From the NCBI GenBank assembly GCA_025996865.1, contig BNTV01000117.1:1-14358 (forward strand): 14,358 nt of DNA, read 5' to 3'. The position numbers were made by a program, and so were the translations under genes. The stretch comes from Bacteroidia bacterium. Lineage in GTDB: Bacteria; Bacteroidota; Bacteroidia; Bacteroidales; Azobacteroidaceae. This document shows, one piece after another, positions 266 through 14,358 of this stretch (its first letter is position 1; every line of letters begins with the position of its first letter). A model generated the notes under the pieces. The model made no database searches and had not been told where the DNA came from. It saw only the letters and a list, made by a program, of their open reading frames with translations.

Positions 266-1390
266 TTATTTCTTCATCGTCGCTTTCCAAACCGCCTTCC
301 GGAGTGTTCCATCGCTGTCGTCTCCGTCGTAATCCCAAAACATCATGCCTTTCATACCTTTTTCCAACAACCATTCGCCTTTGATGGCGATGCTTTTAGC
401 ATTGTCGTAACCACAATAATATTGCCCGTTGTAGGTAACGTAAGGTACCGACGCGGCTTCGTCCCAATTATCAATTTTATAACCGGAACCTAATTGAATA
501 ATTTTATTATAATTGATAGCGCCCGGCGAAGCGGAAAATGAAATCCGGCCGTAAAAAGGGATACCCAATACCAGCTTATTGGCCGGCATTCCGGCGTTCA
601 GGTAAGCTTGTACCGCACGGGTACAGTCGGAATAAGCCGAGGGGTCGTTCAATGCAGACTGATGGTCGCCTCCTTCATCGCCGGCGTCCAAGTCGTAGGT
701 CATGATATTGACAAAGTCCACGTAAGGTGCGACTCCCGCAATATCTATATATTGAAAGCCGCCCGAAACAGCCGTTTTATCCATACAATATCCGGCATAA
801 GTGAGCAGATAGCGGCTTCCCAACGTTTCGCGCAATTCTCTCATCAATAGTATGTGGTTTTGTACGTCCACGGCTCTGTCATAAGCATTGGCATCGCCGC
901 TCCACGAAAGTCCGGGAAATTCCCAGTCCATATCAATGCCATCAATATTCCATTTAGCGAGGAAAGCCTTACAGTCGGCTGCAAAGGCTTTGCGATAAAC
1001 ATCCGATTTGGCAAGTGCAGAAAAACATCCGCCTCTCGCATCTTCCTTGGCGTTGGTAAATGCGATGGAAATTTTCAGATTAGGATTTGTTTTTTTCAGG
1101 TTTACTATTTGTTGGAAACGTGTTTCGTTACCCTGCAATCCCAATCCTTTATATTCGCCGTCTGCCATATATGGTTCGGCAAATGCATAATTGAGATGTG
1201 TCAGGTGGCTGGGGTCAGGGATCGCCGAACCGTAATAGGTTACGTAAGCTAAGACCACACGTCCTTCTACTTTTTCGGGTAATTCGTTACCGCCGACGCC
1301 TCCGCTACCTTGGCCGGGGATGTAATCGTCCTCGCCGCAACCGGTGAACAATAAGGCTATTGCTGTAAAATAGAATAAAAGTTTTTTCAT
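266..1390 (-). CDS. GH18 chitinase-like surface lipoprotein
   Basis: This is a 374-residue glycoside hydrolase family 18 protein predicted to cleave beta-1,4 bonds next to GlcNAc by substrate-assisted catalysis. The catalytic motif DGIDMDWE is at residues 150-157, with Glu157 as acid/base. MTYD at 230-233 and MMFWDYDGDD at 349-358 match the later conserved barrel strands. The Trp after the motif's last Asp and the FP after Glu resemble chitinases more than endo-N-acetylglucosaminidases. The lipobox LFTGC puts the lipidated Cys at residue 18; the following GEDD is acidic, consistent with surface display. A Gly-rich linker (27-34) leads into one catalytic domain, with no visible carbohydrate-binding module. 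The start at 1390 was chosen because it opens directly on the signal peptide; the frame is open to 1492, but that extension would bury the signal. It is the last gene of the SusC/D operon. The usual SxGG motif is absent (SIAF at 108-111). Confidence 0.9.
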   Translation of the reverse strand: MKKLLFYFTAIALLFTGCGEDDYIPGQGSGGVGGNELPEKVEGRVVLAYVTYYGSAIPDPSHLTHLNYAFAEPYMADGEYKGLGLQGNETRFQQIVNLKKTNPNLKISIAFTNAKEDARGGCFSALAKSDVYRKAFAADCKAFLAKWNIDGIDMDWEFPGLSWSGDANAYDRAVDVQNHILLMRELRETLGSRYLLTYAGYCMDKTAVSGGFQYIDIAGVAPYVDFVNIMTYDLDAGDEGGDHQSALNDPSAYSDCTRAVQAYLNAGMPANKLVLGIPFYGRISFSASPGAINYNKIIQLGSGYKIDNWDEAASVPYVTYNGQYYCGYDNAKSIAIKGEWLLEKGMKGMMFWDYDGDDSDGTLRKAVWKATMKK

Positions 1391-1416
1391 GGGATTAATT
1401 TGTTTTTTTATGGAAC

Positions 1417-1493
1417 CATGTAACCCGCATCTATTGGCTCCGCCGAACGTTGTTTCATGCTCTTTGGTGCAAATTTTGCATGCGGGTTTCATG
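1417..1493 (-). other. long-range inverted repeat in the gap before GH18
   Basis: CATGTAACCCGCAT (1417-1430) and ATGCGGGTTTCATG (1480-1493) are inverted copies matching at 13 of 14 positions, separated by 49 bases. They nearly fill the 129 bp gap between the surface lipoprotein and GH18 genes, in an operon where the other gaps are 15 and 20 bp. In minus-strand RNA this would form a stable stem about 27 bases before the GH18 start. No U-tract follows, so a role in mRNA processing, stability or translation of GH18 is more likely than termination. The function is unknown. Confidence 0.45.
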
Positions 1494-1519
1494 TGTTTAT
1501 AATTTTTATCGGTAAAAAT

Positions 1520-2419
1520 CTATTCTTCTACGGTAAAGAAATAGTAACTTGCATCATAATCCCAGTCGTCGCCGGTACGGTTGTATGTACCCGGCAAGCA
1601 GAGAATCATATTGTTGTCATCTATGCTCAGGATGTAATACGGTGTACTTGTACCCGAGAAACTTTGCCAGCTTTTTTCAGTAGCGATAAGCCGAATGGAA
1701 GCGATTACTTCGCCTGCTATTTGTTCACCCCGGTCATCGTGACTGAAACCCCAGCCGCCGGTATTCAAAACAGCCCCATTTTTGTCGTAGATGGTCAACT
1801 TGCTGCCTGCAATTTCAAATACCATGTATTTTCCGAAATCGTCGGCTGTCAATACACTTGCACCACCTTGGTAATTGCTTTGACCCGGAGTCATGTCGTA
1901 GTACTTCCATGCGCCGTACATACCGTTGTAGAACGCCATCGGGTGGTTGAGCAGTTTCCATGTTTTCTTTGCTGTTTTGTCGGCTTTGTCTTTGGCTCCC
2001 GAAAGAAACGTCATATACTCATCGAAACAATTGGTAACCGTAACGGTAAATGTTCCCGATGTTACGGCTTGCTTTTCGGATAACCCGACAAAGTAAATAT
2101 CATACGTGCCGTTGGCTGCGTAAACAATCGTGTCGTGATCGGTATGATATTGTTTTACGCCGGTAGGCGTGTTGACAAACCATGTACCCGCGATGTCCTT
2201 ACGAGCGTTGTTGAGTACTACGTATTGATCACCCTCCACTTTGTCGTCGTTATTGGGAATGGGTTGCGTAACCGAGAGCGCAGCCGTCAGTTCTGCGTTT
2301 GTAACCGGCGTACCGGTTTTTGCAAATTCGTCGCGCAGGCTTTTATCTTCGATAGGGTCGCAAGCGATTATACCGAGCAGCGCGGCTGTTATCATGAAAA
2401 TAAATAATTTTGTCTTCAT
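1520..2419 (-). CDS. PUL surface lipoprotein, candidate glycan-binding protein (SusE/F position)
   Basis: A 299-residue lipoprotein. The signal peptide ends in LGIIAC with the lipidated Cys at residue 20, followed by DPIEDK, an acidic stretch compatible with outer-membrane surface display. Residues about 60-130 are beta-rich and resemble a PKD/Ig-like fold (GTYDIYFVGLSEKQAVTSGT at 104-123). Residues about 150-299 form a second beta-rich, aromatic-rich part with many Trp and Tyr (KTWKLLNHP at 152-160, AWKYYD at 170-175, GDDWDYDASYYFF at 283-295), as expected of a protein that stacks sugars. No catalytic motif is visible. It starts 20 bp after the SusD gene, the slot usually held by SusE/SusF or another surface glycan-binding protein. 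That position, not a recognised family, is the basis for the role. Confidence 0.75.
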   Translation of the reverse strand: MKTKLFIFMITAALLGIIACDPIEDKSLRDEFAKTGTPVTNAELTAALSVTQPIPNNDDKVEGDQYVVLNNARKDIAGTWFVNTPTGVKQYHTDHDTIVYAANGTYDIYFVGLSEKQAVTSGTFTVTVTNCFDEYMTFLSGAKDKADKTAKKTWKLLNHPMAFYNGMYGAWKYYDMTPGQSNYQGGASVLTADDFGKYMVFEIAGSKLTIYDKNGAVLNTGGWGFSHDDRGEQIAGEVIASIRLIATEKSWQSFSGTSTPYYILSIDDNNMILCLPGTYNRTGDDWDYDASYYFFTVEE

Positions 2420-2439
2420 TTTGTAAAATGTTTTTAATA

Positions 2440-4260
2440 TTACAAATTATTCCAATCTTTAAACAAAGCATCGGCGCCCCAACCCGGGTTTTGTTCTATT
2501 ACACCGTTGGAGCGGTCGATTTCCGATTGTGGAATATACCAATAACCTTGTGTTGCTTTCAAACGCGCTTTATAATCGTATTGTACCATCGGTGCAATTA
2601 CAGCTGCGTTAATTACCGTAAAGCCGTTTTGTTTATTCAGGGCATTACCGGCTTCTTCCATAGAAGAACCCGACCAGCGGAGCAAATCAAACCAGCGAAG
2701 CGATTCAAAGGCCAATTCGTAACGCCGTTCGTTTTTGACGGCGTCAAGTGAATAAGCAACCGGCGCCAGATTCGAACGGGCGCGTACGCGATTCAGTCCC
2801 CCGGCATCTTCTTTCAGTTCCGATTGCATCAGCAGTACGTCGGCAAAGCGTATCAGAATCAAATCGGGAATCTGATGGATGGTTTGAGAGGGTGAAGGAA
2901 CCGAAACTTCGGGAAACATCTGAGGTCCAAAAGGTTTGAAACCGCCATCATAGAATGAATTTACGGCAATATATTTCTTCTGGTGGTATCCGGTTTGTTC
3001 GTAATAGCGTTTGGCCACGGTATAATCCGGCTCGTCGGCGTTCAGCTTGCGGTCGCCGATCAATACACTGCCGTTATTCGGGTCTAATGCCTTGTACGAC
3101 CAGACAGAGCCGGTCAGACGCGGGTCTTCGGTAACGCCGCCGATGTAGGTTTGACGAGCTGACCACGTTTTCCAGTCCTCGACAAAAGCGGGCGAAACGG
3201 GTCCTGCGCCCCAACCCTGTCCGAAAGGATAGCGTTCCTGAAAAGTTGAATTGTCATGTGAAGGCGAGAAATAGGTAATGCAGGTATTGCTATACATGGT
3301 ATTGTCCCATCCATTGCCTTGCAATTTGTGCTTGTTGGCAAAAACAGTTTCTTTTGAGTTTAAACCTTCCCAATGCAATCCGTTGTTTACCGCATATTTG
3401 TAACTGTATGCTCCACTATTATGATTGGTAACATTGTTGGTGTAAGCCCACAGGTTGCGTTGGTCGCTTACCAATTGGTGTCCCGAGTTGTTTACGCAGT
3501 CATCAATCCAGGTGATTACCTGCTGTTTGGTAATACCTTCCGGCAGTTCTGTTTTCGCGTAACGGCCGGTGTAGAACAAGAACACGCGCGCCATCATGGC
3601 TTCGGCCGCATATTTAGTGGCGTGGCCTGCCAGCGGGTCATTATCCGGATAAGCCTTGGCGGGCATCCGTTCGATAGCGTTTTTCAAATCGGAAGCAATC
3701 TGTGCATAAATTTCGTCCACAGAAGCGCGGGACAATTTATCCATGTCCGTACCCAAACGCAACGGTACACCGCCAAATACTTGTGCTAATTCATTATAGG
3801 CATAAGCCCGCAGAAAATACACTTCACCCAGATGGCGGTTTTTTTCCGCTTCGCTTGTCCATCCCTTGAAGTTTTCAAAAGCGGTTAAAGCGCTGTTGGC
3901 GCGAAAAATCAGTTGATAGTCGCGTTGCCAGATACCCGGATTCCAATAAGTACCATCCATAGCTCCGAGGAAGAAGTCGGGATTTCTGTATCGTAAAAAA
4001 TTCATGGCGCAGTTGTCGGAACCGGACAGGTTGCCGCCTAAGCCTTCGTCGCCTGCCAGCAGGGCGAGGAAAAACTGGGATGAAGTTTCAGGGCTTTCAA
4101 AGAGCATTTTCGCATATACTCCCGTTAGCATTTCGCCGGCTTCCTGCATGGTTGACGGATAATTATCGCTGGATTTGGTCGTCAACGTTTTCGTATCAAG
4201 GAAATCGTCGCAACTTGCCAGAAATGCGATTGCCAATAATAATATTCCTATTTTTTTCAT
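2440..4260 (-). CDS. SusD/RagB-like outer-membrane glycan-binding lipoprotein
   Basis: A 606-residue SusD-family lipoprotein that would cap the SusC transporter on the cell surface and capture oligosaccharides. The signal peptide ends in FLASC with the lipidated Cys at residue 17, followed by the very typical DDFLDT. The N-terminal half is Tyr- and Ala-rich helical sequence as in the SusD TPR scaffold (HLGEVYFLRAYAYNELAQVF, near residues 143-162). The C-terminal RagB/SusD signature is clear: LILIRFADVLLMQSE, then LNRVRARSNL, then NERRYELAFESLRWFDLLRW. Its length is within the family range of about 500-650. It follows the SusC gene by only 15 bp, the usual coupled pair. The bound glycan cannot be read from the sequence; the neighbouring GH18 suggests a GlcNAc-containing one. 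Confidence 0.96.
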   Translation of the reverse strand: MKKIGILLLAIAFLASCDDFLDTKTLTTKSSDNYPSTMQEAGEMLTGVYAKMLFESPETSSQFFLALLAGDEGLGGNLSGSDNCAMNFLRYRNPDFFLGAMDGTYWNPGIWQRDYQLIFRANSALTAFENFKGWTSEAEKNRHLGEVYFLRAYAYNELAQVFGGVPLRLGTDMDKLSRASVDEIYAQIASDLKNAIERMPAKAYPDNDPLAGHATKYAAEAMMARVFLFYTGRYAKTELPEGITKQQVITWIDDCVNNSGHQLVSDQRNLWAYTNNVTNHNSGAYSYKYAVNNGLHWEGLNSKETVFANKHKLQGNGWDNTMYSNTCITYFSPSHDNSTFQERYPFGQGWGAGPVSPAFVEDWKTWSARQTYIGGVTEDPRLTGSVWSYKALDPNNGSVLIGDRKLNADEPDYTVAKRYYEQTGYHQKKYIAVNSFYDGGFKPFGPQMFPEVSVPSPSQTIHQIPDLILIRFADVLLMQSELKEDAGGLNRVRARSNLAPVAYSLDAVKNERRYELAFESLRWFDLLRWSGSSMEEAGNALNKQNGFTVINAAVIAPMVQYDYKARLKATQGYWYIPQSEIDRSNGVIEQNPGWGADALFKDWNNL

Positions 4261-4275
4261 GTGATTGATTTGTTT

Positions 4276-7200
4276 TTAAAATTTAATATTTGCTCCTACC
4301 ATATAAGTCCGGGCGCTCGGATAAAATCCAAGGTCAATGCCTTTCGTCCATGTTTCGCCGGCGCTGTAACCGATTTCGGGATCCATACCTGAATATCCGG
4401 TGAAGGTAAACAGATTTTGAGCCGTTACATATATTTTCAATTGTTTGACGGGAAGTTTCGGGAATAGGCGTTTAAAGTCGTAACCCAGTGTTATATTCTT
4501 GATTTTCAGGTAATCGCCATCTTCTACATAAATGTCGGATATCCAACTGTAATTGGTACTCGATGAACTTGCCAGTTTGGGGAGACGGTCGGAAGTGCCT
4601 TCGCCGTGCCAACGGTTGAACACGTCGGTCGTGTAGTTATTGAGCGGCGATGATACGAAGTCGCGATAACATTTCATGATCTGGTGTCCAAAAGCGCCGT
4701 AAGTAGTAACCGACAAGTCAAATCCTTTGTAACCCATATTGAATGAGAAGCCCAAAGTCATCTTCGGATGCGGATTGCCAATCATTGTGCGGTCGTTTTC
4801 GTCAATAACGCCGTCACCATTGCTATCCACCCAAATCAGGTCGCCCGGTTCCGGTTTACCCAATTTAGCGCCTTGGTATTCGCTGATCTGTTGTTGATTT
4901 TGCCATACGCCGGCGGTTTTATAGCCGTAAAAGAAGCCCATCGGTTTACCTATTTCCATGCGGTAGCTTTCAGGCGCTGTTCCCCACAGAATACCCGGAG
5001 AACCGTTGATGTATCCGTTTTCGTTGGCAATTCTGCTTACTTCGTTTTTATTGAAGCCTATCGACAGGTTGGCGCCATAAGAAAAGTCTTTGCCTGCGCG
5101 ATCGTTCCAACGAAGGATGGATTCAAAGCCGGTGTTTTTCACGTCGCCGCCATTCACATAAGCGGCGTTTGCTCCCAAATAGACCGGAATTGGCGGAATA
5201 ACCAACCAATCTACGGTTTTACGTTGGTAAACGTCAAATTCCCAACTTAAACGGTTGTGCAGGAAACGGGTATCAATACCGAAATTAATCATGGTTTGTG
5301 TTTCCCATCTCAGGTCGGGATTGATCAGGCGCATGGGGTAAGAAGCTACGGCGGGGTCACCCATCGAATTACCGAAAGGATAACCAAATGTACCGCTTGT
5401 AGATATCAACGACAGATGTTGATTGCCGGTTACGCGGCTGTTACCGTTTTGCCCGTAAGACAGACGCAGTTTCAGAAAGTCGATAGCTTTTACATTTTCT
5501 TCCCAGAAATTTTCGTTGCTGATTACCCAGCCGGCTGATGCGGAGGGAAAATAACCCCAGCGATGACCGCGTGCGAAAACCGAAGAACCGTCGGCGCGCA
5601 TAATCAGGCTTGCCAGGTATTTTTCCTGATAGTTGTAATTTATCCTGCCGAAGAATGAGGATAAAGCGCTTTCGCTGTAAGGAGTACCCGTTAAGGATGC
5701 TACGGTTTTTCCCGGCACATTGCTTAACCAGGCATGTTCAAAGTCGGTAAAAGAAGATTCGGTGTTTGCGCCGCTGATATTTTCGCCGTAACCCGATTTG
5801 TAAATGCTTTGTCCGATCAGTACGTCAAAATTATGTTTGCCTTCAATGTCGAATATATAATTCAGCGTGTTGTCCAATGACCACGAATGTCCTATGCTTT
5901 CCGATTGCGTAACGCGGTCGATACCTCCCAAAACAGTCGATGACAAGGGCTTGTAAGCGGGAGTGTAGGCGCGGTAAGAAGATGCACTGAAATTGTAGCC
6001 GAATTGAGAGCGGAATTTCAAATTCTTAACCGGTTGCAGTTCAGCGTAAGCAGATGCTTGCAGTCCGTAAGATTTGCTGATATTTTGATTGCCGGTATAG
6101 TCCATATAGGCTATCGGATTTTTGTTTGCGCCGTTTGATACGTCCCAGTTGTAGCCTTCAGCCTGCTGGTCGCTGAGGATGTAATAATCGCCGTCAGCAT
6201 TGTACGGATGCATTAATGGACTCATAATTAGCATATTGTGAACGGAGTTCCAATAAATATCGTCGCGGGGTACCGTTCCGTGCATTATTTGATAACGGTA
6301 ATTCATGGTTTCGCCCACTTTGAACAAATCCCAGTCATGGTGTTTATAAATTATTTGTTCGGTATTCAGGCGGAAATTTATCTTTTGGAGGTCGGGCATG
6401 GCGCTTGGTACGCCCATCGTGGCTTCCTGGCTCAGGTAAGTCACGCCCATGGCTGTGTTCGTACGTTCCGTTCCACTGGTAATGCTTACCGAATGGCTTT
6501 GTGTGGGTGCATTTTTGTTCATCGTTTCTTTCAACCAATTGGTGCCTGTCCAAGTTCTGTTTTGGATAGCTGTCCAATCGGCCGACGGAAGAAAATTAGC
6601 CCAGTTAAAAGCAGGTAATCCGTTGATAATCTGCGATTCGTCCTGAATAGTCATGTATTCCTGCGCATTGAGGATTGTCGGAATTTTATAGAGATTTTGT
6701 ACGCCATAGTAACCGTCGTAAGCCACTTCATAATTGCCTGTCTTTCCTTTTTTTGTCGTAACGAGAATAACGCCGTTGGCAGCTTGTACACCATAAATAG
6801 CTGCGGAAGCGGCATCTTTCAATACATCAATGCTTTCAATGTCGTTGGGGCTGAGTCCGTCGATGCTGGCATTGGGTACTCCGTCCACCACATAGAGCGG
6901 TGTATTGGTGCCGTTAGTACCCAAACCGCGAATGTTTACCTTGAAACCGTCGCCGATAAAACCGCTGGTCTGCGTGATTTCAACGCCCGGCGCCTGGCTC
7001 TGCAAAGCTCCCAATACACTTGAGGTGTTTAGCTTAGCAATATTTTCCCCTTTTACCTGCACCGTCGCTCCGGTTACCAGTTTTTTCTTCTGAACGCCGT
7101 AACCGATTACCACCACATCTTCAAGCGTGTTTGCCGATTCCGTCAATGTGATTTTCAGGTTTTCGCCGGCTTTCACTTCTCGCGTTTCGTATCCCAGATA

Positions 7201-7500
7201 AGACACTACAATAATAGCATTGGGATGCACTTTTAACGAAAATTGTCCGTCAAGATCAGTCATCGTTCCGTTGCTTGTTCCTTTTTCGGCAACGGAAGCT
7301 CCTACAAGAGGTTCATTATGAGCATCAACAACGACTCCGTTAGCTACGGGCGTCTGTTGTTGAACAGAAGTTGCGATTGTACTTCCTTCGCCGGAAGGAA
7401 CGGCCATAACCGGATTTCCTCCCACAAAAAAGTACAGTCCCAAAACTGCTGCCAGCAATTTGCTTGACAGTGGGTGCTTTTTTTTGTGATTGTTGTTCAT
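4276..7500 (-). CDS. SusC/RagA-like TonB-linked outer-membrane transporter
   Basis: A 1074-residue SusC-family TonB-dependent transporter, importing oligosaccharides across the outer membrane with the SusD partner. A basic start (MNNNHKKKHP) and hydrophobic stretch at 15-33 form the signal peptide. A carboxypeptidase-regulatory-like domain follows at about 52-118 (NEPLVGASV, GTMTDLDGQFSL, VVSYLGYET), then the SusC junction EDVVVIGYGVQKKKLVTGA (127-145). The plug domain has VNIRGLGTNG, PLYVVDGVP and IDVLKDAASAAIYG (188-237). The remainder is Tyr/Trp/Asn-rich beta-barrel and ends in the expected Phe (GANIKF). The length is typical and the frame is intact. There is no N-terminal STN domain, so signalling through an anti-sigma factor is not indicated. 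It is first in the minus-strand operon, with a -7 box 29 bases before the start. Confidence 0.97.
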   Translation of the reverse strand: MNNNHKKKHPLSSKLLAAVLGLYFFVGGNPVMAVPSGEGSTIATSVQQQTPVANGVVVDAHNEPLVGASVAEKGTSNGTMTDLDGQFSLKVHPNAIIVVSYLGYETREVKAGENLKITLTESANTLEDVVVIGYGVQKKKLVTGATVQVKGENIAKLNTSSVLGALQSQAPGVEITQTSGFIGDGFKVNIRGLGTNGTNTPLYVVDGVPNASIDGLSPNDIESIDVLKDAASAAIYGVQAANGVILVTTKKGKTGNYEVAYDGYYGVQNLYKIPTILNAQEYMTIQDESQIINGLPAFNWANFLPSADWTAIQNRTWTGTNWLKETMNKNAPTQSHSVSITSGTERTNTAMGVTYLSQEATMGVPSAMPDLQKINFRLNTEQIIYKHHDWDLFKVGETMNYRYQIMHGTVPRDDIYWNSVHNMLIMSPLMHPYNADGDYYILSDQQAEGYNWDVSNGANKNPIAYMDYTGNQNISKSYGLQASAYAELQPVKNLKFRSQFGYNFSASSYRAYTPAYKPLSSTVLGGIDRVTQSESIGHSWSLDNTLNYIFDIEGKHNFDVLIGQSIYKSGYGENISGANTESSFTDFEHAWLSNVPGKTVASLTGTPYSESALSSFFGRINYNYQEKYLASLIMRADGSSVFARGHRWGYFPSASAGWVISNENFWEENVKAIDFLKLRLSYGQNGNSRVTGNQHLSLISTSGTFGYPFGNSMGDPAVASYPMRLINPDLRWETQTMINFGIDTRFLHNRLSWEFDVYQRKTVDWLVIPPIPVYLGANAAYVNGGDVKNTGFESILRWNDRAGKDFSYGANLSIGFNKNEVSRIANENGYINGSPGILWGTAPESYRMEIGKPMGFFYGYKTAGVWQNQQQISEYQGAKLGKPEPGDLIWVDSNGDGVIDENDRTMIGNPHPKMTLGFSFNMGYKGFDLSVTTYGAFGHQIMKCYRDFVSSPLNNYTTDVFNRWHGEGTSDRLPKLASSSSTNYSWISDIYVEDGDYLKIKNITLGYDFKRLFPKLPVKQLKIYVTAQNLFTFTGYSGMDPEIGYSAGETWTKGIDLGFYPSARTYMVGANIKF

Positions 7501-7761: not shown

Positions 7762-8736
7762 ATGTTGGCAGTAGGAATCGATTTAGGAGGAACAAAGATC
7801 AATGGTGCGGTTTTCGACAGTGAAGGAAACCGGTTATATCAGACAACTCACCTGTTGGAAAAAAGAAAAGGCTCTGAGGTGGGACATTTAGTTACAGAAA
7901 CCATTCGTGAATTGTTACCGCCAACGGCTTTTTCCAATGTACAGGCTATCGGGATTTGCGTTCCGGGCATCAGCGATACGAAAACCGGTCGCGTGTGGGC
8001 GCCGAATATCCAGGGTTGGGAGAGTTATCCTTTACGGAGAGAAATCGAAGAGTTCTTGGGTAATCCAAGCATTAAGGTTGAAATCGCAGGCGACCGCAGT
8101 TGTTGTATTCTGGGAGAAACCTGGAAAGGGGTGGCTCAAGGCGCCAAAGACGCGCTTTTTATCGCGGTAGGCACCGGTATTGGAATCGGGATTTTGGCAA
8201 ATGGACGGATATTGGAAGGTCATACCGGTATTTCCGGTGCGGCAGGTTGGCTGGCATTAGATACAAAATATGAAGCGGATTACGTGAAATACGGTTGTTT
8301 TGAAAGCAATGCTTCCGGAGACGGTATCGCCCGTTGCGCTCAACGTTTATTGCGGGAAAATTCCGTATTCAAAGGGAGTATCCTTCAAACTTATCCTGCC
8401 GGAAACATTACGGCTCGCGAAGTATTCCATGCGTGGACGAAGAACGACCCGTTAGCGGTGTATGTTATCGACCAGGCAGTGCAAATGTGGGGAATGGCAG
8501 CGGCCAATGTGGTCAGCTTGTTTAATCCTGAAATGATCGTTTGGGGTGGCGGCGTATTCGGACCGGCTAAACAATTGCTTGACCGCATTTATTATGAAGC
8601 CTGCCGGTGGGCGCAACCGATTGCTATCCGGCAAGTGCGATTCGAGGTTTCCCTGTTGGGTGGAGATGCGGGGTTGTATGGTGCGGGGCGTTTGGCTTTG
8701 ATACCCCCCAACCCCCTGAAGGGGGAGTTAGGGTAG
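7762..8736 (+). CDS. ROK-family sugar kinase homologue with degenerate sugar and zinc sites
   Basis: A 324-residue cytoplasmic protein of the ROK family, whose members usually phosphorylate hexoses with ATP. Phosphate-1 motif DLGGTK is at 7-12, ICVPG at 65-69, a putative catalytic Asp111 in AGDRSCCILGE (109-119), and GTGIGIG at 137-143. It departs from the family: NDxN at the catalytic site is GDRS; the sugar-binding ExGH becomes AAGW (160-163); and the zinc motif CxCGxxGCxE is reduced to YGCFE (177-181), leaving one Cys. ATP binding and the base look intact, but sugar recognition must differ, or the protein is not a classic kinase. There is no N-terminal HTH, so it is not a NagC/Mlc-type repressor. 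It is first in the plus-strand operon. The last ten or eleven residues (from about 314) are encoded inside an intergenic repeat; the natural end was probably near GAGRLAL. Confidence 0.87.
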   Translation: MLAVGIDLGGTKINGAVFDSEGNRLYQTTHLLEKRKGSEVGHLVTETIRELLPPTAFSNVQAIGICVPGISDTKTGRVWAPNIQGWESYPLRREIEEFLGNPSIKVEIAGDRSCCILGETWKGVAQGAKDALFIAVGTGIGIGILANGRILEGHTGISGAAGWLALDTKYEADYVKYGCFESNASGDGIARCAQRLLRENSVFKGSILQTYPAGNITAREVFHAWTKNDPLAVYVIDQAVQMWGMAAANVVSLFNPEMIVWGGGVFGPAKQLLDRIYYEACRWAQPIAIRQVRFEVSLLGGDAGLYGAGRLALIPPNPLKGELG

Positions 8737-8790
8737 TGGGTTTAATGATTGTGCTGAGGCAAAGTCCCCTTCAGGGGATTTAGGGGTAAA
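8702..8790. repeat. GC-rich palindromic repeat, copy 1 (REP-doublet-like)
   Basis: The element starts TACCCC (8702-8707) and ends GGGGTA (8783-8788). Each half is itself a hairpin: CCCCCTGAAGGGGG at 8712-8725 and CCCCTTCAGGGG at 8766-8777. The two halves are imperfect inverted copies of one another, separated by a non-conserved middle. The right 32 bases (8759-8790) are identical to 9996-10027 in copy 2. The left half overlaps the 3' end of the ROK gene and the right half stops 15 bases before the MFS start. The surrounding spacer is AT-rich, so the composition stands out. It may act as an mRNA hairpin within the operon, or be a non-autonomous mobile repeat. Confidence 0.85.
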
Positions 8791-8805
8791 TAAAAATATA
8801 AAAGT

Positions 8806-9930
8806 ATGTACAGTAAAAATTTGGTTTTTATAGCATGTTGTGCAGGACTGGCTTTCTTTGGAGTTACGATGTTGGCTCTGGGACCGGTTCTTTCGCACTT
8901 GGGCGAGGGCGCTAATGCGTTGCCGGCTACTTTGTCCATGGGTATCATTGCCGGTACGATAGTGTTTGGTCCGGTAGTGGACAAATTCGGTTACAAAGGG
9001 CTGCTGATTGCCGGTTCGGCGATGGCGTTGCTTGGGGTTCAAGGATTGGCCAACTTGACTGCCATGCCGCTCCTCCATATATCCATGTTGATGTTGGGCA
9101 TTGGCGGTGGTATTCTGAATGGCGAAACCAATGCATTGGTTGCCGAAATCTACGATGACAAAACCCGTGGCGGAAGGTTGAGTCTGCTCGGCGCTTTTTA
9201 TTGTATCGGCGCTCTGTTGTGGACGCTGCTGAATTATTTTATAAAAGATAACTTTACGTTGCCGCTCAACTGTATATCCGTGATAATGGCTGTGTTTATC
9301 GTATTTTTTATAACGATACCTTTTCCCAAGCCTAAGCCGTATGTTAATGTATCCCTCCCAAAAATGCTGGGTTTGTTGAAATATCCGTCCCTGATTCTTT
9401 TTGCTGTTCTTTTATTTTTCCAGAGCGGATTCGAGGGTATCACCGGTAATTTTACCGTTCGGTTTTTAGAAAACGCCCACGGTACGGCAACCGATGCGGC
9501 AACACTTTCTCTCACCTGGTTTACAATCGGCATGTTGGCCGGACGTTTGCCGCTGGGTTGTCTGATGAAGAAATTAGGCGATAACACAACGCTTTATATC
9601 TATTTGTGTGTGGCATTGGCCGGTGTAATGCTTTTGTATTTTGCTCCGGCGTTGGTGTGGATTTATGCGGCTACCGCGTTAATTGGTTTTGGCGTAGGCG
9701 CTACTTATCCCGTCGTATTCAATTATCTCGGCGGCGCTTTCAAGGAATTGTCGGGAACCGTGTTTTCCATTGCCATTTTCATTGCTTTGTGGGGACAGTT
9801 CACGTTCAATAAAGTGATAGGAGTTCTGTTCGACCGGGAACAGTTCAGCTATTTTCCCATTGCATTGGCTTTTGCTGTTGTGATGATGCTGATTATATTG
9901 CCGGTGGCGAAGGGACGAATTAAAAATTGA
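8806..9930 (+). CDS. MFS transporter, probable sugar permease
   Basis: A 374-residue inner-membrane major facilitator protein, probably carrying the sugar released by the PUL enzymes into the cytoplasm. Hydrophobic segments run through the whole length, about 11-12 helices in two halves, with a loop of charged and Pro residues near 172-190 (PFPKPKPYVNVSLPK). The MFS motif A is visible as GPVVDKFGYKG (55-65), with a degenerate second-half counterpart GRLPLGCLMKKLGD (246-259). GGGILNGETNALVAEIYDD (100-118) is a conserved polar/Gly-rich helix as in fucose/hexose-type MFS permeases. Neighbours are a ROK protein upstream (69 bp gap) and a SIS protein downstream (157 bp gap), each gap occupied by a copy of the same palindromic repeat. 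The substrate cannot be read from sequence; an amino sugar or a short oligosaccharide is the guess from context. Confidence 0.88.
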   Translation: MYSKNLVFIACCAGLAFFGVTMLALGPVLSHLGEGANALPATLSMGIIAGTIVFGPVVDKFGYKGLLIAGSAMALLGVQGLANLTAMPLLHISMLMLGIGGGILNGETNALVAEIYDDKTRGGRLSLLGAFYCIGALLWTLLNYFIKDNFTLPLNCISVIMAVFIVFFITIPFPKPKPYVNVSLPKMLGLLKYPSLILFAVLLFFQSGFEGITGNFTVRFLENAHGTATDAATLSLTWFTIGMLAGRLPLGCLMKKLGDNTTLYIYLCVALAGVMLLYFAPALVWIYAATALIGFGVGATYPVVFNYLGGAFKELSGTVFSIAIFIALWGQFTFNKVIGVLFDREQFSYFPIALAFAVVMMLIILPVAKGRIKN

Positions 9931-9937
9931 GACAAGA

Positions 9938-10027
9938 TTACCCCCAACCCCCTAAAGGGGGCTTTAGTGTCTGCGATTTTGCAAGTGGTGCCGCAGCAAA
10001 GTCCCCTTCAGGGGATTTAGGGGTAAA
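9938..10027. repeat. GC-rich palindromic repeat, copy 2 (REP-doublet-like)
   Basis: Same architecture and orientation as the copy at 8702-8790. Terminal TTACCCC (9938-9944) is complementary to GGGGTAA (10020-10026). Internal hairpins are CCCCCTAAAGGGGG at 9948-9961 and CCCCTTCAGGGG at 10003-10014. The right half (9996-10027) is identical to copy 1 over 32 bases, while the middle (about 9967-9995) is unrelated. It fills most of the gap between the MFS stop and the SIS gene; the remaining 10028-10087 is a plain AT-rich leader in which I see no promoter consensus. Confidence 0.85.
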
Positions 10028-10087
10028 AAAGCGGATAATCATAATAATATAAAATAATAGTAATTTATCAATTAAAAAATTTAGAAA

Positions 10088-10849
10088 ATGTTAGCATTAG
10101 AATGGTTGGCAAATGCCCGCGGCATTATGCAGAAAATCGAAGAAACACAGTTGGAAAATATCAAAACGGCTGCAACGGCTATGGCGGACAGTATTGAAAA
10201 AGGTCATTGGGTACACACGTTTGGTTGTGGTCACGCCACAATTCCCATCGAAGAAATGTATCCGCGTATTGGTGGTTTTGTAGGATTTCATCCGATGGTT
10301 GAACAAGCGATGACTTTCTTTACAGGTATAACGGGACAAGGGGGTATTCATCAATTTTTGTTCCTTGAAAGAGCAGAAGGTTATGGAAACGCCATTATGA
10401 AAAACTATCATTTTGAAAAAGAAGATGTGATGTGGATTTTCTCGCATACCGGCATTAACAATGTGAATATTGATGTGGCTTTAAAGGCAAAGGAATTGGG
10501 AATGAAAGTAATCGCCTTTGGTTCGGTAGCCGAAGCAAAAGGCAAAACCACCCGTCACCCGAGCGGTAAAACCATCTTTGAAATTGCCGACATCGTGGTT
10601 GATTCCTGTGTTCCGGTTGTAGATGCTTCGGTGGTTTTGAAGAACCATCAGGATAAAGTCGGGCCATTATCTACGCTTGGATTTATTACCTTGGTATGGA
10701 TGACCGTCACCACTTGCGCCGAAATATTGGCCGACCGCGGTGTGAAACTTTACATTCATCCTTCGCACAATGTGCCCGGCGACACGACAGCCCACGAACG
10801 TTTGGATGCTTGTCTTGCCGAATACAAACGCCGTGTTGCTACCGTTTAA
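10088..10849 (+). CDS. SIS-domain protein (UPF0309-like), putative phosphosugar isomerase or deaminase
   Basis: A 253-residue cytoplasmic SIS-domain protein. SIS domains bind phosphosugars and catalyse isomerisation, deamination or ether cleavage. The N-terminal helix (KIEETQLENIKTAATAMADS, 16-35) leads to the phosphosugar-binding turn HTFGCGHA (43-50) and a second turn IFSHTGINNVNID (117-129), where most SIS proteins have a Ser/Thr-rich S-x-S-G-x-T-x-E; here the Glu is missing. The C-terminal IHPSHNVPGDTTAHER (223-238) resembles UPF0309 'sugar isomerase domain' proteins. Length and the single SIS domain also fit that uncharacterised family better than GlmS, NagB-II or MurQ. Only 9 bp separate it from the creatininase-family gene, so the two are co-transcribed and may act in sequence. 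Confidence 0.85.
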   Translation: MLALEWLANARGIMQKIEETQLENIKTAATAMADSIEKGHWVHTFGCGHATIPIEEMYPRIGGFVGFHPMVEQAMTFFTGITGQGGIHQFLFLERAEGYGNAIMKNYHFEKEDVMWIFSHTGINNVNIDVALKAKELGMKVIAFGSVAEAKGKTTRHPSGKTIFEIADIVVDSCVPVVDASVVLKNHQDKVGPLSTLGFITLVWMTVTTCAEILADRGVKLYIHPSHNVPGDTTAHERLDACLAEYKRRVATV

Positions 10850-10858
10850 TAACGAATA

Positions 10859-11629
10859 ATGGAAGCGTTGAAAGAAAATAAACCGATTGATTTGCAGTCG
10901 GCTACCTGGGCTGACGTGAAGGCGGGCGGTTATTCGTTCGCTGTCTTGCCTTGGGGCGCTACGGAACCGCACAATTATCATTTGCCGTATTTGACCGACT
11001 GGTACATTGCGCATGATATTGCGATGGATTCGGTGGCGAAAGCACAATCCCGGTATGAAGTCCGGGGGATGATTTTTCCCCCGATTCCTTTGGGTGCACA
11101 AAATCCGGGACAGAAAGAATTGCCGTTTTGCATTCATACGCGCTATGAAACCCAGCGTATGATACTGACCGATATTGTCGGTTCGCTCCAAATTCAAGAT
11201 ATTCATCTGTTGATTCTGGTGAACGGACACGGAGGCAATAATTTCAAACCCATGATACGCGACCTGGCGTTCGATTATCCCGGTATGACTATCGTTTGCA
11301 TAGACTGGTTTGCCGTAGAACCTCAAAAGAATTATTTTGAAAATTTTGACGATCATGCGGGGGAAATGGAAACTTCGGTCATGCTGCATTATCATCCGGA
11401 ATTGGTGCGATTGGAACAGGCGGGAGACGGCGCTTCTACGCCTTTTAAAATTGAAGGTCTGAACACTAAGGTCGGATGGATACCCCGCCGATGGGATAAA
11501 ACGACTCAGGACACCGGGGTAGGGGATCCCCGCAAAGCGACTGCCGAAAAAGGCAAACGATATGTTGATGTCGTTACGGACAAAATCGCTCAATTGATGA
11601 ATGACTTGGTACATCAAAACATTTATTAA
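10859..11629 (+). CDS. creatininase-family metal-dependent amidohydrolase
   Basis: A 256-residue cytoplasmic protein of the creatininase/CrnA superfamily, whose members hydrolyse C-N amide bonds (and in one branch a cyclic C-C bond) with one or two divalent metals. Expected metal ligands are in place: Glu36, His38, His41 and Asp47 in GATEPHNYHLPYLTD (33-47), His124 in NGHGGN (122-127), and Asp165/His166/Glu169/Glu171 in DDHAGEMETS (164-173). NGHGGN separates it from true creatininase, which has a Glu two residues after that His. There is no signal peptide. It follows the SIS gene by 9 bp and precedes GH9 by 27 bp, so a role in sugar catabolism is far more likely than in creatinine metabolism. 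Deacylation of an N-acyl sugar, or ring opening of a keto- or lactam sugar, are possible; neither can be shown from sequence. Confidence 0.9.
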   Translation: MEALKENKPIDLQSATWADVKAGGYSFAVLPWGATEPHNYHLPYLTDWYIAHDIAMDSVAKAQSRYEVRGMIFPPIPLGAQNPGQKELPFCIHTRYETQRMILTDIVGSLQIQDIHLLILVNGHGGNNFKPMIRDLAFDYPGMTIVCIDWFAVEPQKNYFENFDDHAGEMETSVMLHYHPELVRLEQAGDGASTPFKIEGLNTKVGWIPRRWDKTTQDTGVGDPRKATAEKGKRYVDVVTDKIAQLMNDLVHQNIY

Positions 11630-11656: not shown

Positions 11657-13453
11657 ATGAGAAAAATTTGTTTATTTCTGGTTTTAATAGTTTGCACAAT
11701 AACATCTTATGGGCAAACAGGCTCGTGGGTAAGAATCAATCAAGCAGGTTATTTGCCCCAAGAAGTGAAAGTAGCTGTTTTTATTTCCGAAAAATCAAAT
11801 AAAAGCAAAGCGTTTCAGGTAAAAGATGCCAAAACCAATGGCATTGTCTTGAAAGGCGAAGGCGTTGCCGCTAATGCCGGACGTTGGGGAATGAAACAAG
11901 CCCTGCGCCTCAATTTTTCCGGTTTGAAAACCAATGGTAAATACTACATCGAATGTAACGGAACGAAATCCCCGGTTTTTGATATTGACCCGAAAGTGTA
12001 TGACGGTGCGGCGGATTTTATTCTGAATTATATGCGTCAGCAACAATGCGGCTACAATCCTTATTTAGATACGGTATGTCACCAACACGATGGTTATATT
12101 GTGGATCATCCGACGCTTACCGGTCAAAAGATAGATGTGCGGGGCGGTTGGCACGATGCTTCCGACTACCTGCAATACTTGACCACTTCGGCCAATGCGG
12201 TTTTCCAGATGCTTTTCGCCTGGCAACAAACACCCGATCCTGCGATATTCAAAGATGAATACGATGCAATGGGACGTAAAGGCGCCAACGGTATTCCCGA
12301 TATTTTGGACGAAGCCCGTTGGGGCTTGGATTGGATGGTTCGTATGAACCCTGATTCTGCCTTGATGTTCAACCAGATAGCTGATGATCGCGATCATGCC
12401 AATTTCCGTAATCCGGCGCTCGACTTGGTGGACTATGGCTATGGACCGGGATTGGGACGTCCGGTATTTCCTGTTACCGGTGTGCCACAGGGATTGCGTG
12501 AACATAAAAACCGGTCAACCGGCGTATCGTCTTCGGCTGCGAAATATGCTTCCGCTTTTGGTTTAGGCGCCGCCATTTTCAAAGATATTGACCCGGCATT
12601 TGCAGAAATCCTGCAAGCAAAAACTTCACCGGCTTATGGTTATGCCGAAGCCATTCCGGGTAATAATCAAACGGCTTGTACGGTTTCGCCTTATTTTTAT
12701 GAAGAGGATAATTGGGTGGATGATGTAGAATTAGCGGCGGCAACCCAATATGATTTGGTACAATCGCCTTTCTGGCTGAAAAAAGCCGATTACTGGGGAC
12801 AACTCGAAGAAATCACTCCCTGGATGGAACTGGGACGCGCGCGTCATTACCAATTTTATCCGTTTGTGAATCTGGGACATTATTATTTGGCCAAATCGGA
12901 TCACCCGACTATTAGCGATAAATACAAGGCATTTATGAAAAGAGGTTTGGAATCGCTTAAAAAACGGGCTGTGGAAAATAACGACCCGTTCCTGAACGGT
13001 ATCCCTTATATTTGGTGCTCCAACAACTTAACGGTAGGCGCTCTTACCCAAGCGATGCTCTACCATGAAGTTTCGGGCGATGATACATTCCTTGAAATGG
13101 AAGCGGCTTTGCGCGATTGGCTGTTGGGTTGCAATCCCTGGGGAACTTCCATGATTTGCGGTTATCCGGTTCATGGTGATTTTCCCAGCCGGCCTCATTC
13201 CTATATATCGGAAATGCTGCATGAAGTTCCTATTGGCGGATTAATCGACGGCCCGATTTACAAACATATCTATGAATCGCTTTTGGGTATTCATTTGCAA
13301 TATGAAGATGGTTATGCTCCTTTCCAATTCGGAGCGGCTGTTTACCATGACGATCCGGGTGATTATTCTTCGAATGAGCCTACCATGGACGGGACAGCCA
13401 GTTTGAGTTATTTTCTTTCTACGATGCAGAAACGGGGGAAGTTGCAGCGGTAA
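11657..13453 (+). CDS. secreted GH9 glycoside hydrolase with N-terminal Ig-like domain
   Basis: A 598-residue glycoside hydrolase family 9 enzyme, an inverting beta-glycosidase fold. A signal peptide (1-19, ending TSYG before QTG) has no lipobox, so the product is periplasmic or secreted. A CelD-type Ig-like domain spans about 23-110 (VRINQAGYLPQEVKVAVF near its start). The catalytic (alpha/alpha)6 domain carries GGWHDASD (163-170; Asp167 and Asp170 as the water-activating pair), GANGIPDILDEARWGLDWM (209-227), LLGCNPWGTSMICGYP (489-504), SRPHS (511-515) and the acid Glu574 in SSNEPTMDG (571-579). GH9 is mostly cellulases, but in Vibrionaceae chitin loci the GH9 enzyme acts as an exo-beta-glucosaminidase. 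The neighbouring GH18, kinase-like and amidohydrolase genes make the amino-sugar reading more likely. It is last in the plus-strand operon. Confidence 0.93.
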   Translation: MRKICLFLVLIVCTITSYGQTGSWVRINQAGYLPQEVKVAVFISEKSNKSKAFQVKDAKTNGIVLKGEGVAANAGRWGMKQALRLNFSGLKTNGKYYIECNGTKSPVFDIDPKVYDGAADFILNYMRQQQCGYNPYLDTVCHQHDGYIVDHPTLTGQKIDVRGGWHDASDYLQYLTTSANAVFQMLFAWQQTPDPAIFKDEYDAMGRKGANGIPDILDEARWGLDWMVRMNPDSALMFNQIADDRDHANFRNPALDLVDYGYGPGLGRPVFPVTGVPQGLREHKNRSTGVSSSAAKYASAFGLGAAIFKDIDPAFAEILQAKTSPAYGYAEAIPGNNQTACTVSPYFYEEDNWVDDVELAAATQYDLVQSPFWLKKADYWGQLEEITPWMELGRARHYQFYPFVNLGHYYLAKSDHPTISDKYKAFMKRGLESLKKRAVENNDPFLNGIPYIWCSNNLTVGALTQAMLYHEVSGDDTFLEMEAALRDWLLGCNPWGTSMICGYPVHGDFPSRPHSYISEMLHEVPIGGLIDGPIYKHIYESLLGIHLQYEDGYAPFQFGAAVYHDDPGDYSSNEPTMDGTASLSYFLSTMQKRGKLQR

Positions 13454-13465
13454 ATCGTTTGACAC

Positions 13466-13478
13466 TTGAAATTTTCAA
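13466..13478. other. short inverted repeat between convergent genes
   Basis: TTGAAA (13466-13471) and TTTCAA (13473-13478) are complementary around one base, in and just beyond the 21 bp gap between the GH9 stop and the convergent TssG-like stop. The stem is AT-rich and too tight to fold well in RNA. No convincing terminator is visible for either gene here, so the transcripts may overlap. Confidence 0.2.
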
Positions 13479-14358
13479 ATAAACGAATTAATACCGAGAA
13501 ACGTGCTTGTATTTTCGTCGGACAATATAAATGCGGAATCTTCCGGTAATATTTTAAATTCCTTGACTACAAAAGCGTTCATCGGCAGAAACATATCGCA
13601 CAGGATTTCCAACAATTCGTAGTCTTTATGTCCCGCTATAAAATCAATCATCCGGCGGGACGATATGGGTCCAACGGTTATTTTCAAGTCCAGTTCGCCG
13701 TCGTCGAAAGAATCTCCCAAAACAAAATTGTCACCTAAACGACAATCGCCAAGCGTTGAGGAAAATGACCGGTCGGCTTTTTTTTCCGGAAGCCGGATAT
13801 GGCTTATGTTTACCGGAACGTTCAGCAGCACGGAAAGGACTTTTTCCGATTCTTCCCGCTGACTTTGTATCCGGTGTATCATCGGGATGATATACAGGAA
13901 AATATTGGCTTGTTCCGGCGTCAGTCGTTTCAGGACAGGCCAATAGGGGCGGAACATATCGACAAAATCCGGATAGCTGATTTTTTTGTGCAGCTTGATG
14001 TCCAGCAGGAAAGCATCCGTCAGGGTTTCATCGGCAACGATTTCAAAGGCTTGGAAGAATTTCCGTGCAAAAAACTCTTCCCTGCGGTGCACGTTGATTT
14101 CGTGCAACACGTCTTCTTTGTCCAGGTCAAGCCTTTTCCTGTAAAGCGGTTGATGGAACAATCCCTGCGGGAGCATGTCGTAAATGCCTTCGCGATTGAT
14201 CCGGACATGTAACATATTCATTTGGTTATGGAGTGAATATTTCAGTTGTACTTTCTCCACTTCTTTCGAAAATCCCCGCCTTCCGTACCCTTCACGGATG
14301 ATATGGATTTGTTCGGGATTGTAGCCTTGTTCCATCAAAGAAGCGACTACCACTTCCG
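13475..14358 (-). CDS. tssG: TssG-like type VI secretion baseplate protein, 5' end outside the window
   Basis: At least 293 codons in an open frame running off the right edge; the first start codon inside the window is GTG at 14353, but the preceding codon is also sense, so the true start is probably outside. Numbering from that GTG, residues 58-122 include YDMLPQGLFHQP and HRREEFFARKFFQAFE, an acidic/aromatic region seen in TssG-like proteins. The C-terminal half matches the TssG pattern best: LLNVPVNI (176-183), RLGDNFVLGDSFDD (205-218), LKITVGPIS (223-231) and the end FLGINSFI (285-292). TssG joins TssF and TssK in the phage-like baseplate wedge in the cytoplasm. In Bacteroidota this would belong to the type VI subtype iii. 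It is convergent with GH9 and unrelated to the PUL. The call rests on recalled motifs, so it is moderate. Confidence 0.62.
   Translation of the reverse strand, partial: EVVVASLMEQGYNPEQIHIIREGYGRRGFSKEVEKVQLKYSLHNQMNMLHVRINREGIYDMLPQGLFHQPLYRKRLDLDKEDVLHEINVHRREEFFARKFFQAFEIVADETLTDAFLLDIKLHKKISYPDFVDMFRPYWPVLKRLTPEQANIFLYIIPMIHRIQSQREESEKVLSVLLNVPVNISHIRLPEKKADRSFSSTLGDCRLGDNFVLGDSFDDGELDLKITVGPISSRRMIDFIAGHKDYELLEILCDMFLPMNAFVVKEFKILPEDSAFILSDENTSTFLGINSFI

Follow-up and report, generated by a model that had tools for sequence, protein, structure and literature searches.

The window analysed here is the whole 14,358-bp stretch of DNA that makes up contig C117 (BNTV01000117.1) of a Bacteroidia bacterium assembly (GCA_025996865.1, G000; 5.4 Mb, 421 contigs, 88% complete). 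A run of four + strand genes was found in the window, encoding a homologue of ROK-family sugar kinases, an MFS permease, a SIS-domain protein (SIS) and a creatininase-family hydrolase (CRE). From the company these genes keep, an amino-sugar role of the cassette is probable. A more tentative proposal, drawn from gene context, is that the locus would serve to break down N-acetylated amino sugars, with CRE deacetylating in place of NagA. The genes of the window are as follows.

7762-8736, + strand: ROK-family sugar kinase homologue (PF00480, 163.7 bits), without the usual E-x-G-H sugar-binding motif
8806-9930, + strand: MFS permease of the triad (PF07690, MFS_1)
10088-10849, + strand: phosphosugar enzyme with a SIS domain, from the UPF0309/NagS group (PF13580 SIS_2 / NF002805)
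10859-11629, + strand: CRE, creatininase-family hydrolase (PF02633, 186.8 bits), a candidate amino-sugar N-deacetylase
11657-13453, + strand: GH9 glycoside hydrolase with a CelD_N domain (PF00759 and PF02927), its N terminus resembling a secretion signal by eye
4276-7500, - strand: SusC-like TonB-dependent transporter, named by eye and by its position before SusD, not by Pfam
2440-4260, - strand: SusD-like lipoprotein (PF14322, PF07980)
1520-2419, - strand: 299-residue protein without a Pfam match that travels with SusCD-GH18
266-1387, - strand: GH18 chitinase-like hydrolase (PF00704, 187.4 bits); the open frame extends to 1492 and a later start was assumed

The coordinates confirmed what the first-pass annotation of this DNA had reported, namely four genes in one direction beside a GH18/SusCD operon, a SIS-CRE gap of 9 bp and no NagA- or NagB-like gene in the window. 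The other gaps were 69 bp (ROK-MFS), 157 bp (MFS-SIS) and 27 bp between CRE and the GH9 gene, which belongs to the same + strand run. The SusC/SusD/hypothetical/GH18 operon (266-7500, - strand) is divergent from the ROK-to-GH9 run, and chitinases were the top-scoring solved structures for its GH18 protein. The cassette is attached to a SusCD/GH18/GH9 locus of chitin or glycoprotein type. Promoter and terminator scans produced 16 and 14 candidates against 13.1 and 8.0 in shuffled sequences and were not used as evidence.

Other features of the window and its genome were also recorded. The 299-residue protein is a conserved uncharacterised protein that may bind glycans at the cell surface as a lipoprotein. 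A TssG-like type VI secretion baseplate gene (13475-14353, - strand) converges on the GH9 gene, and the related locus L017 carries a MurB-like gene in that place. With 5.4 Mb, G000 exceeds each of the 33 genus mates searched, which range from 1.0 to 4.2 Mb, and its stated contamination is 2.7%.

Conservation of the ROK-MFS-SIS triad

A contig scan with 11 SIS sequences produced 409 relatives, of which the best 80 loci (74-93% identity; two of them, L050 and L087, from one genome) were analysed. The ROK-MFS-SIS triad is a conserved unit: in 75 of the 80 loci both the ROK and the MFS gene lay upstream of SIS at a distance of no more than three genes, and among the other five, L060, L087 and L102 start near a contig end. 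An MFS gene was near SIS in 78 loci. The triad ranged across Bacteroidota and was also present in two Ignavibacteriales loci, and the loci closest to the window belonged to genomes of Dysgonamonadaceae bacterium or Candidatus Symbiothrix.

CRE was the gene directly after SIS in 22 of the 80 loci, counting L051, where it is overlapped by a longer antisense open reading frame (ORF). A GH9, GH18 or GH20 gene was found within six genes in 16 of these 22 loci compared to 6 of the 58 loci without CRE (p = 1e-7). GH9 was near SIS in 19 of all 80 loci and the 299-residue protein, together with SusCD, in nine. Among 393 genomes of the order, CRE (E ≤ 1e-50) was present in 49, comprising 10 of the 13 with SIS and 39 of the 380 others (Fisher p = 8e-8); the two genes were adjacent by coordinates in five of the 13 (G000, G017, G052, G601 and G766). 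The linkage of the SIS and CRE genes to glycoside hydrolase and ROK genes, which the first-pass annotation had read from one stretch, therefore recurs in related genomes.

GH18, GH20, GH9, NagX-like, NagA or NagB genes occur around the triad. In two Dysgonomonas loci the order was SusC-(SusD-like)-ROK-MFS-SIS-CRE-GH20-GH9 with a NagX-like (DUF5009) gene nearby, and NagX-like genes were also near the triad in L083 and L100. A NagB gene occurred within six genes of SIS in seven loci, and in L148 (genome G757) NagA (276 bits), ROK, MFS and SIS formed one run.

Other genes recurred around the triad. Clusters resembling Porin_10 and SLT followed SIS in 22 loci (L070-L073, L075-L082, L084-L086, L088-L090, L093 and L097-L099), many of which had nicotinate-phosphoribosyltransferase-like (20 loci) and isochorismatase-like (17 loci) genes before the triad, all these labels being taken from Pfam on one member of each cluster. 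A GHL10-like gene (Pfam on L062 only) stood just before ROK or its SusCD pair in L056, L057, L061, L062, L063, L065 and L067. A protein of about 1000 residues followed GH9 in L056, L057, L061, L063 and L074, with Golvesin_C and a weak Amidase_3 match in the L057 member. A GH42-like gene before ROK was found in five loci, by Pfam in L091, L092, L149 and L152 and by length and place in L066; it was rejected as an exo-glucosaminidase, the one member searched (L149) being closest to ordinary beta-galactosidases and far from the exo-glucosaminidase GlmA (5gsm, E 0.0019). A possible analogue of CRE, a polysaccharide-deacetylase gene that follows SIS in one genome (L154/L091), was set aside as a weak parallel because its N terminus looks secreted by eye. 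In L157, from the same genome as L066, an ecotin gene and not CRE followed SIS.

Properties of the ROK, SIS and CRE proteins

ROK hexose kinases carry an E-x-G-H motif whose Glu and His bind the sugar. In an alignment of 86 rows (the window and all loci with a ROK ORF of more than 280 residues, some genomes appearing twice), the position of the motif His was Trp (W163 in the window) in every row, while D111, which is presumably the catalytic base, and E181 were kept throughout. Aligned with 2qm1, the window reads G-A-A-G-W where 2qm1 reads G-E-V-G-H, and its score with the NCBIfam NagK model was 103.2 bits, below the cut-off of 380. This suggests a substrate, or a binding mode, unlike that of ordinary hexose kinases. 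The zinc Cys motif of the family also seems incomplete in the triad ROK proteins.

The SIS protein of the window has 253 residues with a single SIS_2 stretch and is closest to NagS and BH3325. Similarity to NagS, at 28-29% identity, extended over the full length of the sequence and to the fold, as predicted from a 40-row alignment with a predicted local distance difference test score (pLDDT) of 84; a model from 11 rows (pLDDT 60) was dropped. Structures with two SIS domains stood well below NagS in the structure-match lists, judged by rank in the list only. NagS (SCO4393), a UPF0309 protein of Streptomyces, dehydrates N-acetylglucosamine-6-phosphate (GlcNAc-6-P), does not bind glucosamine-6-phosphate (GlcN-6-P), and forms a product that NagA deacetylates to an enamine/imine (PMC12680351). 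His53, Arg64, Glu94 and Asp179 of NagS are essential, Asn228 is important, and a change of Ser91 produced a 40-fold loss of kcat/Km (PMC12680351). Five of these six residues were kept in the window as H49, R60, E94, D179 and N228, and the same five were matched in 95 of 95 aligned SIS rows; the Ser91 position was Leu, Val or Ile in all 95. The identity to NagS is below the 58.7% minimum seen among NagS orthologues in the same study, which held the activity to be limited to Streptomycetaceae and assayed four homologues, three of which, at 26-36% identity, had little or no activity (PMC12680351).

PF02633 was the only Pfam family matched by CRE, well above the gathering cut-off of 31.3 bits. The protein scored below the NCBIfam equivalog cut-offs for creatininase (73.8 against 235 bits), IolN (43.6 against 245) and MftE (82.2 against 172). 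Across 43 rows, residues E36, H38, D47, H124, H166 and E171 were each kept in 95% or more and are taken to bind metal as in creatininase, and the NGHYEN of creatininase reads NGHGGN in CRE. A close solved relative was 3lub (E 9.4e-100, 12 chains), whose deposited structure contained 24 Zn and 12 Ca ions according to the part of PMC3975891 that was covered; that paper was the sole match for UPF0309/3LUB, and no function for 3lub was given in the literature searched. The substrate of CRE should be cytoplasmic because no signal peptide was apparent by eye.

CRE also occurs away from SIS. Among 20 such loci, fetched mostly from higher-identity matches, five had sialate or N-acetylglucosamine (GlcNAc) genes beside CRE. 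The order was MFS-NanA-epimerase-CRE in L171 and L174 (with one gene intervening in L171), the epimerase being an N-acylglucosamine 2-epimerase and the NanA-like and epimerase proteins of L171 scoring below their NCBIfam equivalog cut-offs. L179 had epimerase-CRE-MFS, L167 had ROK-like-MFS-CRE-NagB, and L170 had esterase-NanM-esterase-CRE (NanM-like and sialate-esterase-like) with a GH20-like gene. In addition, a sialate-esterase-like gene neighboured the CRE of L022 (G044), which lies away from SIS; no sialate-type genes were among the neighbours scanned for the similarly placed CREs of L020, L023, L024 and L025. In the CRE tree, a modestly supported branch (74/81) had the 23 SIS-linked CREs all to one side, and the five sialate- or GlcNAc-linked CREs were scattered. 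Together with the neighbours of the triad, these settings upheld the link to amino sugars that had been suggested for the window.

Two other roles for CRE can be weighed on this evidence. A CRE outside amino-sugar metabolism, as a lactonase, a ring-opening hydrolase like IolN or a carried-along peptidase, would fit the weak IolN and MftE matches and a 61% identical homologue in G030 that sits beside GFO_IDH_MocA and 3-keto-disaccharide hydrolase genes; the recurrence of sialate and GlcNAc pathway neighbours and the fixed position of CRE after SIS argue against it, and it is regarded as very unlikely. Alternatively, SIS and CRE might act in sequence, converting GlcNAc-6-P to 6-phospho-chromogen I and then deacetylating it, so that the resulting enamine/imine would hydrolyse to 3-deoxy-hexosulose-6-phosphate and ammonia and no GlcN-6-P would form. 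The first step would be the NagS reaction, whose product is known to be a substrate for deacetylation, the five matched NagS residues are in place, and CRE directly follows SIS in all 22 CRE-carrying loci. However, Ser91 is replaced in every row, the three NagS homologues of 26-36% identity showed little or no activity, CRE is also found in loci that lack SIS, and the cassette showed no gene for use of the 3-deoxy product. The sequential scheme is accordingly judged improbable, and little credence is likewise given to its wider form, a NagB-independent route in gut Bacteroidota in which an adjacent NagS-like dehydratase and creatininase-family deacetylase would lead from GlcNAc-6-P through 6-phospho-chromogen I to a 3-deoxy-2-keto sugar phosphate. 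If true, this route would be a productive pathway built from a reaction known so far only in a Streptomyces toxicity pathway.

Distribution of NagA and NagB

NagA was searched with model TIGR00221, at E ≤ 1e-20 in the triad and order scans, the latter scoring up to four candidates per genome. The first-pass annotation had left the presence of both genes elsewhere in the genome to be checked. In G000 no NagA match was found at E ≤ 0.001, and for NagB there were a fragment truncated at a contig edge (C198:5-397, 173 bits), whose open frame contains one stop, and a 638-residue ORF with a NagB domain. NagA was above the cut-off in 3 of 58 relatives. For the triad, 50 of the 80 loci were tested and NagA was found in 18 of these genomes; 15 of the 19 that carry CRE had no match, among them Dysgonomonas sp. 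521. G569 (L171, on a 3.4 Mb contig) and G535 (L167) were not among the NagA-positive genomes and had NagB, so that without CRE both would lack a deacetylation step.

NagB was matched in 25 of 26 genome handles at E ≤ 1e-20 (22 triad genomes and four with CRE but no SIS) and in 40 of 44 at E ≤ 1e-15, several handles being the same genome twice. No match came from G297, G359, G354 (53% complete) or the single genome behind G641 and G381, and G757, G416, G363 and G368 gave only weak ones. NagB is therefore usually still available. This bears on the earlier suggestion that SIS would serve as the glucosamine-6-phosphate deaminase in place of NagB, with CRE in place of NagA. The NagA-ROK-MFS-SIS run of G757 does mirror kinase-permease-deacetylase-deaminase operons, and the NagB matches of G757 and G416, both NagA-positive, reached 81 bits at most, the best lying inside ORFs of 780-785 residues; G297 and G641 had none. 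Against this stand the NagB counts above, the single domain of SIS with its closeness to NagS and BH3325, and the failure of NagS to bind GlcN-6-P. A deaminase role for SIS is thus quite improbable; as the only NagB it was rejected as a general rule, and what remains in its favour comes from the few genomes without a good NagB, chiefly G757.

The proposal that CRE stands in for NagA fared better. It is plausible given the lack of a NagA match in G000 and in most CRE-carrying triad genomes, and given the MFS-CRE-NagB, MFS-NanA-epimerase-CRE and NagA-ROK-MFS-SIS arrangements. Several observations nevertheless weigh against it. NagA was rarer in triad genomes with CRE (4 of 19) than in those without (14 of 31), but with p = 0.13, and the 17 CRE-less triad genomes without a NagA match imply that the triad can do without either enzyme. 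Across the order, no more than 49 of the 393 genomes had a NagA match, which makes its absence ordinary. At that level its association with CRE was positive (17 of 49 genomes with CRE compared to 32 of 344 without, p = 1e-5), as it was with SIS (7 of 13 compared to 42 of 380, p = 3e-4). Such positive associations argue for a common amino-sugar lifestyle and against a simple exchange of one enzyme for another, and strict substitution of NagA by CRE or SIS was rejected on that ground. Bacillus subtilis, which has NagA, was included as a control and was missed at E ≤ 1e-20, so divergent NagA forms may have been overlooked. Outside the SIS loci a fixed partner of CRE was also rejected, since 15 of the 20 loci had none of the reference amino-sugar genes, and other CRE homologues (G030, G040, G035 and G047) had other neighbours.

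Finally, without the ordinary hexose motif in ROK the substrate may not be plain GlcNAc. The triad could then serve another amino sugar or derivative, such as N-acetylmuramic acid or a modified hexosamine, with SIS as an etherase, epimerase or isomerase making GlcNAc-6-P or GlcN-6-P and CRE removing another acyl group. The CRE-carrying loci accompany GH18, GH20 and GH9 genes, and a 40-row SIS profile run against PDB sequences gave no MurQ among the matches listed; both points disfavour this alternative, which is held to be unlikely.

Proposed role of the cassette and comparison with known systems

For N-acetylated amino sugars with CRE in place of NagA, the following sequence of events is envisaged. 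GH18 and GH9 would cut the glycan outside the cytoplasm, and SusCD and the MFS permease would take up the pieces. ROK would phosphorylate the sugar at O6. SIS, with its NagS-like active site, would act on an open-chain 2-acetamido-6-phosphosugar; it may do so in parallel, upstream, or before CRE by NagS-like dehydration. CRE, whose solved relative holds zinc, would remove the N-acetyl group instead of NagA, and NagB encoded elsewhere in the genome would convert GlcN-6-P to fructose-6-phosphate. Judged by gene context, deacetylation in place of NagA is the most likely role of CRE. The simplest reading that covers both settings of CRE is that, in genomes lacking NagA, it deacetylates GlcNAc, N-acetylmannosamine or the 6-phosphates of these sugars and NagB acts downstream.

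NagA was undetected in 344 of the 393 order-level genomes, at limited sensitivity, yet NagB was present in most triad genomes tested. If the proposal is true, a creatininase-family deacetylase fills the NagA gap in the genomes carrying one, and the CRE branch of the creatininase family gains an amino-sugar role. The triad also places the NagS fold in a second natural context, beyond Streptomycetaceae. The first-pass annotation had expected undescribed roles for both proteins; for the UPF0309 group an amino-sugar role is already in print as NagS (PMC12680351), whereas no creatininase-family amino-sugar deacetylase was found in the open-licence PMC literature among the matches listed. The same search listed no assigned role for a catabolic ROK-MFS-SIS triad in Bacteroidota. 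In the passages covered, a comparative genomics study of mucin sugars names non-orthologous replacements and none of these proteins (PMC5583593), another report has ROK and hexokinase for glucosamine in Bacteroidales (PMC11300592), and a third mentions a NagB-II operon in Xanthomonas (PMC13055268).

Compared with known systems, the window SIS differs from NagS by its low identity and replaced Ser91, and lies in a catabolic operon whereas NagS belongs to a toxicity pathway. Deaminases of the NagB-II/GlmD type share the SIS fold and the GlcNAc-operon neighbours but carry two SIS domains, where the window protein has one. CRE shares the family and most metal-site motifs with creatininase, MftE, ArfB, IolN and 3lub. 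It resembles NagA in its proposed reaction and its place in kinase/MFS operons, but is a PF02633 protein without the PF01979 amidohydrolase domain of NagA. The chitin pathway of Thermococcus, which uses a deacetylase, the exo-glucosaminidase GlmA and a SIS-type deaminase, follows a like logic of deacetylase, exo-hydrolase and SIS enzyme with different protein families.

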